Positions 26,137 to 38,612 of a stretch of 48,195 nucleotides of DNA are shown in pieces. Below the pieces are notes generated by a model that was not told the origin of the DNA, made no database searches, and worked only from the letters and a program-made list of their open reading frames with translations. The stretch is from Gemmatimonadota bacterium. GTDB taxonomy: Bacteria; Gemmatimonadota; Gemmatimonadetes; Gemmatimonadales; GWC2-71-9. The stretch lies in NCBI GenBank assembly GCA_003223395.1, contig QHUZ01000048.1, positions 1 through 48,195 of the forward strand, written 5' to 3'. The number at the start of each line of letters is the position of its first letter. The stretch's first letter is position 1. Position numbers and translations under genes: made by a program.

Positions 26137-27598
26137 ATGTTGCCTGCCGTGACTATCTGGGAAAAAACCACCCGATCGCTGCGGAGCCTGCGCCTCGACA
26201 CCATGCGGGGCAAGTTTGTCGCGTTTGCGGTGCTGGCAACGCTGTTCACGACGCTCGTCATGACCGTGATGTTGTACGGCCGGAATCGCCGCTCGCTGAG
26301 CGACCGGGTCGGGCAAGAGCTCCGCGCCCTGAGCTCGGACATGGCGCGCGAGGTGGCCGTCTGGTTCGACCAGCGAGTCTACGATCTGCGCCTGCGCGCG
26401 AGCCCCTACGTCGTGTCGGACAACCTGGCGCGAGCCACCGGCCGCAATGCGGCGCAGTCCCTCAACCGGCTCCGCGACTACCTCAATTCCGTGCGCCAGA
26501 ATCTCCCGGCTCACGAAGGGCTCGCCATCATCGGTCGAGACGGGCAGGTCCTCACGAGCAGCGGCAGCCGGACGGGCTTCCGTTTGACGCCCGACCGCAT
26601 GAACAATCTGCGGACCCGCGATGCCCTGGTGGGCGATCCCTTCTGGGACGCCAGCATCGGGAAAGCGGCGGTCGTCCTCGTCGTGCCGATCCGTCAGGAT
26701 GACGGGCTCTTCCTGGGCGCGTTGGGCGCGAAGATCAATCTGGACAGCCTCCGCGAGGTGTTAGACCAGCTGTCGGCCGGCCACTCCCGCGACCTCTACC
26801 TCATTACCGAACAGGGGCGCGTCGTGATCCGCTCCGCCGGCAACCCCGCGGACGCCATGAAGGCAACCCTGCCGGACGCGACGACCAGAGAGCTCACCGA
26901 ACGAGAAGGCCAGACGATCGCGCAGGCACGCCCGCAGGGGCGTGAGGTCGTGGCGGTGCTGCGGCGAATTCCCCAGCTGCACTGGGCGGCCGTGGCCGAA
27001 ACACCACGTGCCGAGACCGTGCGCGAGGCGGGAGTGCTGCGGTTTCGCACCGTGCTAGAAGCTCTCGCTCACCGATTCCCTGACCGGCCTGTACAATCGC
27101 CGGCACCTGATGGGCACGCTCGCCAGCGAGGTGCAGCGGTCGCGCCGCCTGCGGCGCGCCTTCGCGGTCCTGCTGGCCGACGTCGATCGGTTCAAGCAGT
27201 ACAACGACACGCACGGCCATCTCGCCGGCGATGCGGCGCTCGTGAAGATCGCGGAGGTGTTCCGCAAGACGACGCGGCAGGTGGACTGCGTGGCGCGCTA
27301 CGGCGGCGAGGAGTTCGTGGTGATGCTGCTCGAGGCCAACCTGGCAACGGCCACCCTGGTCGCGGAGCGCATTCGCGCCCGCGTGGCGGAGCAGGATCTC
27401 GGCGAGGGGTCTCTCACGCTGAGCATCGGCGTCGCCGAGTACCCCGACGGCGGAGACACGCCGGAGGAGCTGATCGCCACCGCCGACGCAGCGATGTACA
27501 AGGCGAAAAGCGCCGGCCGGAACCAGGTCGTGGTGGCCGGGACGAGCGAGGAGCGGCCTCAGCCCCAGGAAAAAAAGCGGCGCAAGCGCGAGGCGTAA
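26137..27598 (+). pseudogene. Membrane-anchored diguanylate cyclase with Cache-like sensor, disrupted by a frameshift/deletion
   Basis: Reading frame 1 gives an N-terminal cytoplasmic tail, one transmembrane helix (about 27-46) and a ~250-residue periplasmic Cache-like sensor domain ending ...HWAAVAETPRAE...FRTVL. Near 27055-27061 coding jumps to frame 2. That frame has a TAG at 27056 and then LSLTDSLTGLYNRR, the start of a complete GGDEF domain: DVDRFKQYNDTHGHLAGD, inhibitory I-site RQVD and active-site GGEEF. The second transmembrane helix that normally links Cache to GGDEF is missing. The junction therefore looks like a deletion of non-multiple-of-three length rather than one miscalled base. 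The intact gene would make c-di-GMP. As it stands the GGDEF part has no start codon before ATG 27110, inside the domain, so activity is doubtful. Confidence 0.8.
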
Positions 27599-35645: not shown

Positions 35646-37761
35646 TCAAGACGAGGCGGTCGAGCTATCGCTCGGCGCGCGCCGGCTCACGAGCATGTGT
35701 GCCCACGCAATGGCGTAGAGCACTATCGCGAGCAGGTAGAGGAATCGGAATCCGAAGTACATGGAGTTGTACTCGAGCAGCCCACCCGCCATGGCGCCGA
35801 GCAGGTTCGCCGCCATGACGGCGGTGACGGACGCCCGCGCTCCCAGCAGCGTGGAGAACACGATCCCCGAGAAAAACAGTGGTGATGTGAGAAGCGCCGC
35901 GCTGGCGATGCGGCCGGCGGGGGTGGGCGGGAAGCCTCCCGCACGCGCGACGAACCAGCCCACGGCGAGGCTCCCGAGCAGCAGCGCGTAGGCCCCGTGC
36001 GGTCGTCGCAGGTCGAACCGATGCACGGCGGCATTCGCGAGGAAGGCCATGATCAGCACGCCGGCGATCACGAAGCCGATCACCTGCCAGGTATTGCCGA
36101 ACGTCAGCCCCAGCTCCGTGATGGCCTTCGTTTCGACCAGCATGAATCCGGCGGGTCTCCGCGAGGGTCTCGGGGGGCAGGGCGAACGTTCCTTCGTTGT
36201 TCTGCAGAAAGACCACGGCCCCGTCGTACCCGGCGCTCACGACGGCCGGGGCGGCGCCGTCGAAGGCGTGCCGGAGCATCTCGTACATCTTGCGGCCGAT
36301 CGCGTCGGTGAGGGCCGAGAACGACACGACCAGAAGACCCCCGGGCTTGAGTCGGGCACGCGCCTCCCGGAACCCTTCGACTGTATACACGAACGAGTCG
36401 AGGCGAACGCTCGACGCGTGGCTCAGCAACGTGTGGGAGTCGAGCAGTCCGTAGACGATCAGGTTGTACGTGCGATCGGTGGTCCGCAGATACGAGCGGG
36501 CGTCGTTGGCGATGGGAAGCACGCGAGCGTTCGTGTAGGGCCGTTCGGGATGATTGGCGCGTCCCGCCCACAGGATGGCCGGGTCAATCTCGATCGCGTC
36601 GATGTGGGCGGCGCCGCCGCGGAGCGCCGCGGCCACGTCGTTGCCCGCTCCGGCCCCCACCACCGCGACATCGGCGGGGGCGGGGAGAACGCGATACGGC
36701 AGGTCGTAGTAGTCGCGCACCTGCCTGCGGCGCGGGTCGTCGGCCGCCCGTGGAGACGAGAGGTCGTGCACCCGCTGGTAGTAGTGGCCCGCCGCGCGGA
36801 TTACCATGAGCCCGGCGTCGCTATAGCCCAGCTCGAGCAGTTGGTAGGGCGAGTAGATCCGCTGCCACGACTGTTGCACCGGCCAGGCCAGGATCACCAC
36901 CGCGGTGATGGCCGCCGCGAACCCGGCGAGCAGCGTCGCGGGCCGGGGCACGACGAACAGAAGCAGCGCCAGGAACGCCACCCCGTACCACACCACGGGC
37001 GACGTCCACAGCGCGCCGGCTAGCAGGGTCAGCAGCACACCGGCGAGGCTTCCCAGCAGATTGAGACCGTACGCCCGCAGTCGCGGACGACGCGTCATGA
37101 GCCGGCCGCACAGCTGGCCGACGGGGACGAACGCCAGGGCCGTCAGGAGGAAGACGAGGCAGAGGAAGAAGTACACGGCGAACCACTGCGCCAGAGTGCG
37201 CGCGGTGCGCGCGCCCATGCTCAGTTGCTCGAGGAAGGGGATCGCCGTGACGCTCTCGAGTTGCCACGGCTCCAAGCCGAACCGGAGTCCGATCAACACG
37301 CCGAACTGCCACGCGAGCAGCGGGACGACGAGCGCGAGGCAGATGCGGTCGCGAGTCGCGAGCGCGTACCCCAGGCCGAGGCCGGCGAAGCACGCGAGGA
37401 GTCCGAAGTTCTTGTAGAAGGAGAAGAACTCGAACACCGTCCCCTGCCAACGGATCACAGCGAGCTCGAGGAACAGACTCAGGCCCGCCGCGCCCGCGAT
37501 GGCGAGATCCAGATAGGGAAGCGGCAGCGCGTCGAGGAACGCGGCTTGATCCCGCGCATTGGCATCGAGCGCCGGCGCGAAGCGCCGCAACAGTAGGTGG
37601 AACAGCCAGGTGGCCCCCAGTACGACGGCCACCGTGACCGCGGTGGATCCGAGCGGGACGCTCTGCCGGCGATGGAGGAGGGATGCTACGGTGATCACCG
37701 TGGGAGCGAGGCCGCTCGCCGCCACGGCGATGGTCGAACAGCGCAGGAAGGCCCGGGTCAC
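35646..37761 (-). pseudogene. Spermidine-synthase-like membrane methyltransferase, frame disrupted
   Basis: From a GTG at 37761 the first frame encodes about eight transmembrane helices and then a Rossmann-type SAM-binding domain (about 355-530: DVAVVGAGAGNDVAAAL, IDAIEIDPAILW, YNLIVYGLLDSHTLLS, RLKPGGLLVVSFSAL). After ...LPPETLAETRR, near 36140-36146, the frame is lost. Another frame continues with MLVETKAITELGLTFGNTW and further transmembrane helices to the stop at 35646, the normal C-terminal block of this family. The stretch that usually links them (a DDWPFLY-like motif and one or two helices) is absent, suggesting an internal deletion. The long antisense-like tail after the junction in the first frame has no coding character. 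Intact relatives are membrane proteins with a polyamine-synthase-like domain of unknown substrate. Confidence 0.75.
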
Positions 37762-37830: not shown

Positions 37831-38475
37831 TTACGGTCTCACGGTGACGACCGCTGTGCCGCTGCGACCCTCGCTGGTCGCGATAACCGTCGTGGTGCCC
37901 GCCGCTATCGCGTGGACAAAGCCCTGGCCAGCAATCGTTACCACCGTGGAGTCACTCAAGGACCAGGTAATCGCCCGCCCGAAGAGCGCGCTACCAGTCG
38001 AGTCGGTCAGCGTTGTGCTGAAGCGCGTGGTGTCACCGAGGACGAGGCTGACGCTGGCGGGTGTGACTGCGACCGTATGTACCGGTACCGGCGTTGCCGT
38101 GACGGAGATGTGGGCGGTGTCCGCGGGTACGCCGATGGCTGTGGTGACAACGAGCAGATAGTCGCCGGGCTGCGCGGGCGACGAATACGTAATGTGGAGG
38201 ACGCCGCCGAAGTTGCCATTGTTGATGATGCTCCCACCGGTCGTGGACCACTGCAGCAACCCCGTCCCATCGCCGTGTCCCGTGCTGACGGCGATGGTGA
38301 GCGGCGCAGCCTGGAATGGCACGAGCGAGAGGCGGGCGGGAGCGACCTGGATGCCGTCGACACGAACCACGACGGGTGAGCCCGGGATCTTACAGCCGAC
38401 GACCAGCATTCCGGCGGCCACCGCACCAACCTTTATCCGCGCGAGTCGTCGCGACAGCTTGAACCTGAAGTTCAT
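37831..38475 (-). CDS. Lipoprotein with bacterial Ig-like (BIG_2-type) domain
   Basis: The product is 214 residues. The start is the ATG preceded by GGGGAGGA; upstream in-frame codons run through a riboswitch-like leader and are not coding. The signal sequence ends in a lipobox (LVVGC, Cys about 29). A first beta-sandwich (about 40-125, VAPARLSLVPFQAAPLTIAV ... PGDYLLVVTTAIG) is followed by a typical BIG_2 domain (about 130-214: VAVTPASVSLVLGDTTRFS, ITWSLSDSTVVTI, GFVHAIAAGTTTVIATSEG). Such proteins are surface adhesion or matrix components. The leader resembles a cyclic-dinucleotide riboswitch, which is a fitting regulator for a surface protein. Confidence 0.82.
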   Translation of the reverse strand: MNFRFKLSRRLARIKVGAVAAGMLVVGCKIPGSPVVVRVDGIQVAPARLSLVPFQAAPLTIAVSTGHGDGTGLLQWSTTGGSIINNGNFGGVLHITYSSPAQPGDYLLVVTTAIGVPADTAHISVTATPVPVHTVAVTPASVSLVLGDTTRFSTTLTDSTGSALFGRAITWSLSDSTVVTIAGQGFVHAIAAGTTTVIATSEGRSGTAVVTVRP

Positions 38476-38493
38476 CGTCTGTCCTCCCCTAAC

Positions 38494-38529
38494 AAAAAAG
38501 GCCGCCGGCGTGGTGAAGCGCTGGCGGCC
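38494..38529 (-). terminator. Leader terminator upstream of the Ig-like lipoprotein
   Basis: On the minus strand GGCCGCC (38529-38523) pairs with GGCGGCC (38506-38500); an inner GCG/CGC extends the stem after one mismatch, with loop CTTCACCA, and TTTTTTG follows. It sits 19 bases before the lipoprotein start, so it acts inside the leader as an expression platform rather than at a gene end. Confidence 0.75.
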
Positions 38530-38612
38530 CGGCGAGCAAGGCGGTTGACCCACCGTAGCCCCGTGGCTCTGCGTCGCCGCCTTTCGACGGCTTTGCTCTG
38601 AGCAGCACCGGC
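38521..38612 (-). promoter_or_regulatory. GEMM-I-like cyclic dinucleotide riboswitch
   Basis: Minus-strand landmarks match the GEMM-I (c-di-GMP-I) aptamer: CAGAGCAAAG (38600-38591); a 6-bp helix GCCGTC/GGCGGC closed by a GAAA tetraloop (38585-38582); GACGCAGAGCCACGGGGCTA (38575-38556), equivalent to the invariant GACGCAAAGCC..GGxCTA; and a downstream GCCGGG. Relative to the Vibrio Vc2 RNA, the base equivalent to G20 is A (38597) and A47 is kept (38570). A second hairpin CGGT-GGGTCA-ACCG forms the other arm. The 3' end of the aptamer (CAGC around 38522) overlaps the 5' arm of the terminator, so ligand binding could prevent termination (an ON switch, inferred). Confidence 0.65.

Follow-up and report, generated by a model that had tools for sequence, protein, structure and literature searches.

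The leader RNA of a lipoprotein gene in a soil bacterium of the little-studied phylum Gemmatimonadota is most probably a GEMM-Ib riboswitch that turns transcription on, responding to a signal made by a Hypr GGDEF enzyme and serving a regulon that consists mainly of Ig-like surface lipoproteins. It was found in a 48,195-nt stretch of DNA (hereafter the window) that is contig 104 of a 3.4-Mb Gemmatimonadota MAG. From its binding pocket, the ligand is likely to be cAMP-GMP.

The window contains a complete GEMM-I aptamer

The window has a single Rfam match, to RF01051 (c-di-GMP-I), which runs from 38607 to 38520 on the minus strand and spans all 87 positions of the model (1-87). Its score of 62 bits (E 7.5e-10, cmscan) is well above the gathering score of 35 bits, so that the GEMM-I-like leader that a first-pass annotation of this DNA had placed on the minus strand is substantiated by the covariance model. 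The same annotation had put an A at the specificity position by hand alignment, and the Rfam alignment selects the same base (38597). Helices P1, P2 and P3, the tetraloop, and A47 and C92 of the pocket are all present in the window element (Table 1). We take model position 38 to be A47, in the numbering of Vc2. Natural cAMP-GMP (cGAMP) riboswitches are marked by the combination of A20, A47 and C92, the GEMM-Ib signature; the role of A14 and C75 in the Gs riboswitch has been described (PMC6274999).

The window element shares its fold, tetraloop, A47 and C92 with the Vc2-type c-di-GMP-I riboswitches (GEMM-I, RF01051), from which it differs in having A for G at position 20. Like the GEMM-Ib riboswitches of Geobacter (GSU1761 pgcA and pilM) it keeps the GEMM-I fold, A20 and C92. 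Unlike them it has a G at A48 (GACGCAGAG) and a GCUG/CAGC P1, and it comes from the Gemmatimonadota.

Pair counts in 20 homologues show 97% of cells paired, with 31 double-change cells, a number that was reached in none of 500 shuffles. The binding pocket is near-invariant in these sequences. The stability of the aptamer calculated by RNAfold is ordinary (z -0.5 to -1.4). Folding is uninformative for so GC-rich a sequence, and we rejected it as proof of an aptamer. The case is made by the covariance score, the conservation and the covariation, and not by RNAfold stability.

Table 1. Features of the riboswitch and the gene it is predicted to control
Feature	Position	Strand	Basis and remarks
GEMM-I (RF01051) aptamer, A20/A47/C92 type	38520..38607	-	cmscan; type common to 39 elements among 61 genomes
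A at specificity position (= Vc2 G20; Gs riboswitch A14)	38597	-	Rfam alignment, model position 11
A47 equivalent, intercalating adenine	38570	-	Rfam alignment, model position 38
C92 equivalent	38524	-	Rfam alignment, fold, analogy to pilM riboswitch C75 (PMC9262584)
P1 5' strand GCUG	38603..38606	-	100% of cells paired, 20 sequences; P1 types covary across phyla
P1 3' strand CAGC	38520..38523	-	First C is also last base of main terminator 5' arm
GAAA tetraloop on P2 (38591-38586 with 38581-38576)	38582..38585	-	Sequence, Rfam alignment, pair counts
Intrinsic terminator hairpin	38500..38529	-	5' arm GGCCGCC 38529-38523, 3' arm GGCGGCC 38506-38500; RNAfold
U tract TTTTTT	38494..38499	-	Sequence; 18 nt before ATG at 38475
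Shine-Dalgarno-like GGGGAGGA	38482..38489	-	Sequence
Controlled gene, 214-aa lipoprotein	37831..38475	-	Lipobox-type Cys28; one Big_2 Ig-like domain, residues 132-212 (Pfam); N-terminal MNFRFKLSRRLA

The 3' end of the aptamer is reused by a terminator

Both C92 and C93 lie within the 5' arm of the terminator, in agreement with the overlap noted in the first-pass annotation. The hairpin is paired in 97.8% of cells in the 20 homologues; it is too conserved among close relatives for covariation to be visible there. The CCGCC of the aptamer and its P1 3' strand can pair with a sequence further downstream; by an arm search, this 3' arm with four or more T in a row behind it was found in 27 of the 39 window-type A20 elements.

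A pattern search gave 109 A20 matches in Gemmatimonadota, Nitrospirota, Deltaproteobacteria and others. P1 is fully paired in 92 of these, with types that differ by lineage (CGCUG/CAGCG, CUUUG/CAAAG, UUCUG/CAGAA, CACUG/CAGUG and CCAUG/CAUGG). The terminator arm tracks P1 across phyla in 77 of 90 pattern matches, where following P1 means agreement in at least three of four bases, for which we estimate that about 15% would be expected under random pairing. P1 and the terminator arm thus vary together, and therefore closure of the aptamer and termination compete for one strand. The terminator and the ligand-bound aptamer are mutually exclusive, in that the arm is shared, conserved and covarying.

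Since C92 and the 3' strand of P1 are shared with the 5' arm of the terminator, ligand binding should prevent termination. The anatomy thus points to an ON switch, as had been proposed earlier, and the conserved reuse of the aptamer 3' end and the variation of the arm with P1 across phyla support that direction. This predicted arrangement resembles that of Geobacter GEMM-Ib, where in the pilM cGAMP ON switch the terminator sequesters the ligand-binding C75 (PMC9262584). By analogy, C92 would be paired with the G of the ligand in the bound state, and with the 3' arm of the terminator in the unbound state. With no ligand bound, the final bases of the aptamer (CCGCCAGC) would pair with the downstream GGCGG to form the intrinsic terminator, and the lipoprotein would not be transcribed. 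When ligand is present A20 and C92 would hold cAMP-GMP and P1 would close, so that the terminator could not form and the lipoprotein would be made.

We note that the same A20 leader architecture, CTTTGCTCAGAGC... with a CTTTGGCGG or CTCTGGCGG terminator arm, occurs at loci L141, L146, L165, L188, L193 and L213, on contigs labelled Nitrospirota and Deltaproteobacteria; the target at L193 resembles an FN3-like secreted protein. Two hits in the pattern scan of contigs (L158 and L179) were rejected as chance matches inside coding sequence.

Window-type elements and their target genes

This genome contains three GEMM-I elements, two A20 and one G20. The second A20 element (contig 60) is followed by a short ORF and then by an Ig-like lipoprotein; the single G20 element (contig 8) precedes a glycerate-kinase-like gene. 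RF01051 gave 115 matches in 43 of 61 related genomes, comprising 39 A20 elements of the window type, 18 other A20 and 58 G20; the exact motif left 32 unassigned, and further reading classed all but one. The motif of the window type is CGCTGCTCAGAGCAAA...GACGCAGAG...GCCGCCAGC. Its 39 members are distributed over 16 of the 61 relatives, and A20 is fixed in this type across many genera, with G20 elements coexisting in the same genomes. This supports the earlier suggestion that the window element is an A20 variant.

The lipobox-type cysteine and the Pfam Big_2 match bear out the Ig-like lipoprotein reported for this leader in the first-pass annotation, and the protein is expected to be anchored to the membrane. 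Big_2 was found in 30 of 34 targets of window-type A20 elements, and most of these proteins are lipoproteins; Cys28 is at least 90% conserved among the A20-type targets, and their N-terminal consensus is MxFxxKLxxRLA. By contrast, Big_2 was found in 12 of 42 G20 targets, the others including glycerate kinases, subtilases and pilin-like proteins (Fisher p = 1.5e-7, ignoring relatedness among targets). The target ORFs were picked by length and a Shine-Dalgarno rule, and many are incomplete at the edge of a sequence stretch. The window type and the G20 elements found in the same genomes thus serve different sets of targets. The window type also differs from Geobacter GEMM-Ib, whose surface-protein targets are cytochromes and pili rather than Big_2 Ig-like lipoproteins.

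The lipoprotein gene is preceded in some A20 leaders by a short ORF that begins MPFTFKLSxRLA, as at L003:1276-1434 (-); it may be a duplicate that has decayed, or encode a leader peptide. Downstream of the lipoprotein in the window is a gene for a 698-aa membrane protein (35665-37761, minus strand), which has a region of weak resemblance to polyamine aminopropyltransferases and, in its C-terminal part, reads like a frameshift. An operon with this gene was not adopted, because there is a promoter-like site between the two.

A candidate Hypr GGDEF enzyme

GGDEF domains are matched 14 times in this genome, and in one of these the canonical Asp is replaced by Ser. This protein (contig 28 of G000; L011) is a MASE1-GGDEF of 468 aa, and the gene after it encodes an RsbR-like STAS protein. 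The GGDEF protein reads NDRHGHLAGS and carries three published Hypr signatures: Ser at 348, where Hypr enzymes have Ser or Thr and not Asp; a GGDEF and not a GGEEF motif; and a residue other than Arg (Asn) at the position of Tyr304. The search for a Hypr-type GGDEF that the first-pass annotation had suggested thus yielded a candidate. The product of the enzyme is likely to be cAMP-GMP, as judged from these residues, and it would make the signal for the riboswitch.

All 29 distinct Ser-type domains in the loci examined have the motif GGDEF, while the Asp-type domains of the same loci have 25 GGEEF and 13 GGDEF. This result was not built in, since the search pattern allowed GGEEF. It accords with the Goldilocks rule, by which Ser348 occurs with GGDE[F/Y] and never with GGEEF (PMC6456294). 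Residues Tyr304, Ser348 and Asp374 were placed via the equal-length match of an NYR-type relative to GmGacA (6D9M), 93 residues on 93. The position of GacA Tyr304 is occupied by Tyr, His, Asn, Phe or Gln in 28 of the 29 Ser-type domains, mostly by Tyr, so that these 28 lack Arg there. It is Asn in the contig-28 candidate, His in the sister species and mostly Tyr in other genera; Asn is not among the residues tested at 304 in PMC6456294. The candidate is like the Hypr enzyme GacA (GSU1658/Gmet_1914, PDB 6D9M) in having Ser348, GGDEF and not GGEEF, no Arg304, and RxxD at the I-site position. It is unlike GacA in having a MASE1 membrane sensor and Asn304 in place of the receiver domain and Tyr304. 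As in Geobacter, therefore, a Hypr GGDEF (here a candidate) is encoded in the same genome as the GEMM-Ib riboswitches. For CD-NTases as another source of cGAMP, no match to the AGS_C family, the one family searched, was found in this genome.

Other GGDEF domains were noted in passing. Those at L008, L271, L279 and L294, from several genera, have Asn at the base-recognising position (GHEAGN...GGDEF). The window itself encodes a canonical GGDEF domain (27068-27526, plus strand) whose open frame is just 179 aa long; in G001 a relative of 94% identity is part of a 564-aa frame, and a frameshift or truncation in the window is possible.

Co-occurrence of A20 elements and Ser-type GGDEF domains

Among 395 Gemmatimonadota genomes, exact-match DNA patterns, which miss divergent members, found A20 in 55, Ser-type GGDEF in 43 and G20 in 83. 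Counting genera as independent, A20 and Ser-type GGDEF occur together in 11 of 138 genera where 4.8 are expected (p = 0.001), and G20 and Ser-type GGDEF in 6 of 138 where 5.2 are expected (p = 0.43). For A20 the association has p = 0.005 within the family of the window, and p = 0.13 outside it, which is not significant alone. The GGDEF domains were read in six A20 genomes that lacked a pattern match and no Ser type was found; the near-complete A20 genomes G015 (93%) and G039 (98%) have none among the domains read. The pairing of A20 with the Ser type is therefore not universal.

The probable ligand of the A20 aptamer

An A at position 20 increases the affinity for cAMP-GMP, but natural A20 aptamers can be dual, as in the omcST riboswitch (PMC6456294), and an A20 aptamer of Desulfobacca acetoxidans has gained affinity for cAMP-GMP with little loss of that for c-di-GMP (PMC9481103). 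The window element could thus be a dual or c-di-GMP-preferring GEMM-I aptamer with the same ON mechanism, whose physiological ligand is c-di-GMP made by canonical GGDEF proteins. There are about a dozen of these in the genome, one of them in the window, so c-di-GMP is surely present, and some A20 genomes are without a recognisable Hypr enzyme. Yet A20 is fixed across many genera beside G20 elements, sometimes in one leader; A20 tracks Hypr enzymes where G20 does not; and the targets of the two classes are strongly different. We therefore regard this reading as rather unlikely.

The changed base in the pocket, together with the existence of variant classes of the aptamer in Rfam (RF03167), might suggest that a different cyclic dinucleotide is read, c-di-AMP or an unknown one. 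This is very improbable, because C92 is invariant here and reads G by Watson-Crick pairing, so that a G is to be expected among the bases of the ligand. Slighter still is the chance of a degenerate aptamer or an ordinary terminator lacking ligand control; the unexceptional folding would fit this, but the 62-bit score, the near-invariant pocket in 20 homologues, the covariation and the preserved overlap with the terminator all argue against it. A GEMM-Ib ON switch responding to cAMP-GMP is thus our preferred reading.

Tandem elements and a second A20 variant

Several loci carry mixed tandems, in which a G20 aptamer lies 68-96 nt downstream of an A20 aptamer that has a terminator to itself. The 3' end of the G20 aptamer adjoins a CCTC...GAGGGG hairpin that covers the ribosome-binding site. 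The loci are L082:1750-1999 (+), L050:1740-2010 (+), L023:724-995 (-), L054:1292-1565 (-) and L064:4257-4532 (-), with three more found by pattern (G179 C6, G295 C4 and G249 C121). A20 comes first in every mixed tandem. It is possible that these are two-input leaders for cAMP-GMP and c-di-GMP. The D. acetoxidans tandems of AdoCbl/c-AMP-GMP and c-di-GMP-I also include a cAMP-GMP aptamer in tandem logic (PMC9481103), but in the loci related to the window A20 is paired with a G20 (c-di-GMP type) aptamer in one leader; the leader in the window itself, unlike the D. acetoxidans tandems, has a single aptamer. Among the tandem logic gates that a 2022 survey lists (PMC9481103), the A20-then-G20 device does not appear. 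Tandem arrays of A20 alone precede Ig-like lipoproteins at L060:1762-2164 (-), L061:1784-2186 (+) and L067:1705-1963 (+), i.e. two triplets in G002 and one doublet in G001.

A second A20 GEMM-I variant (AGAGCACACC, apparent A24C/A43C) occurs in other Gemmatimonadota, at L105:1715-1825 (+), L102:1754-1837 (+), L103:1680-1777 (-) and L106:1694-1784 (-). Of 16 targets that were scanned downstream of it, 10 are STAS-domain proteins. A terminator scan found no overlapping terminator, and most of the host genomes have no match to the Ser-type GGDEF pattern.

Implications

In published descriptions cAMP-GMP riboswitches figure as rare variants that are plentiful in Geobacter and linked with extracellular electron transfer. 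The riboswitch type is known, and it is the lineage and the regulon that are apparently new: text searches brought up no relevant title on cGAMP, or on GEMM riboswitches, in the Gemmatimonadota, although earlier reports of A20 elements there may exist. On balance we lean towards a cAMP-GMP circuit extending through the Gemmatimonadota, in which Hypr GGDEF enzymes would act through ON riboswitches upon Ig-like surface lipoproteins, and in several genera leaders with an A20 aptamer and terminator, then a G20 aptamer by the ribosome-binding site, would read cAMP-GMP and then c-di-GMP. This phylum-wide circuit and the A20-G20 tandems are the main interest of the analysis. If correct, a conserved set of riboswitches outside Geobacter, with a matching enzyme encoded in the same genomes and a quite different, adhesin-like regulon, would show a broader role of cAMP-GMP in surface behaviour, and would provide testable functions for an abundant and mostly uncultured soil phylum.
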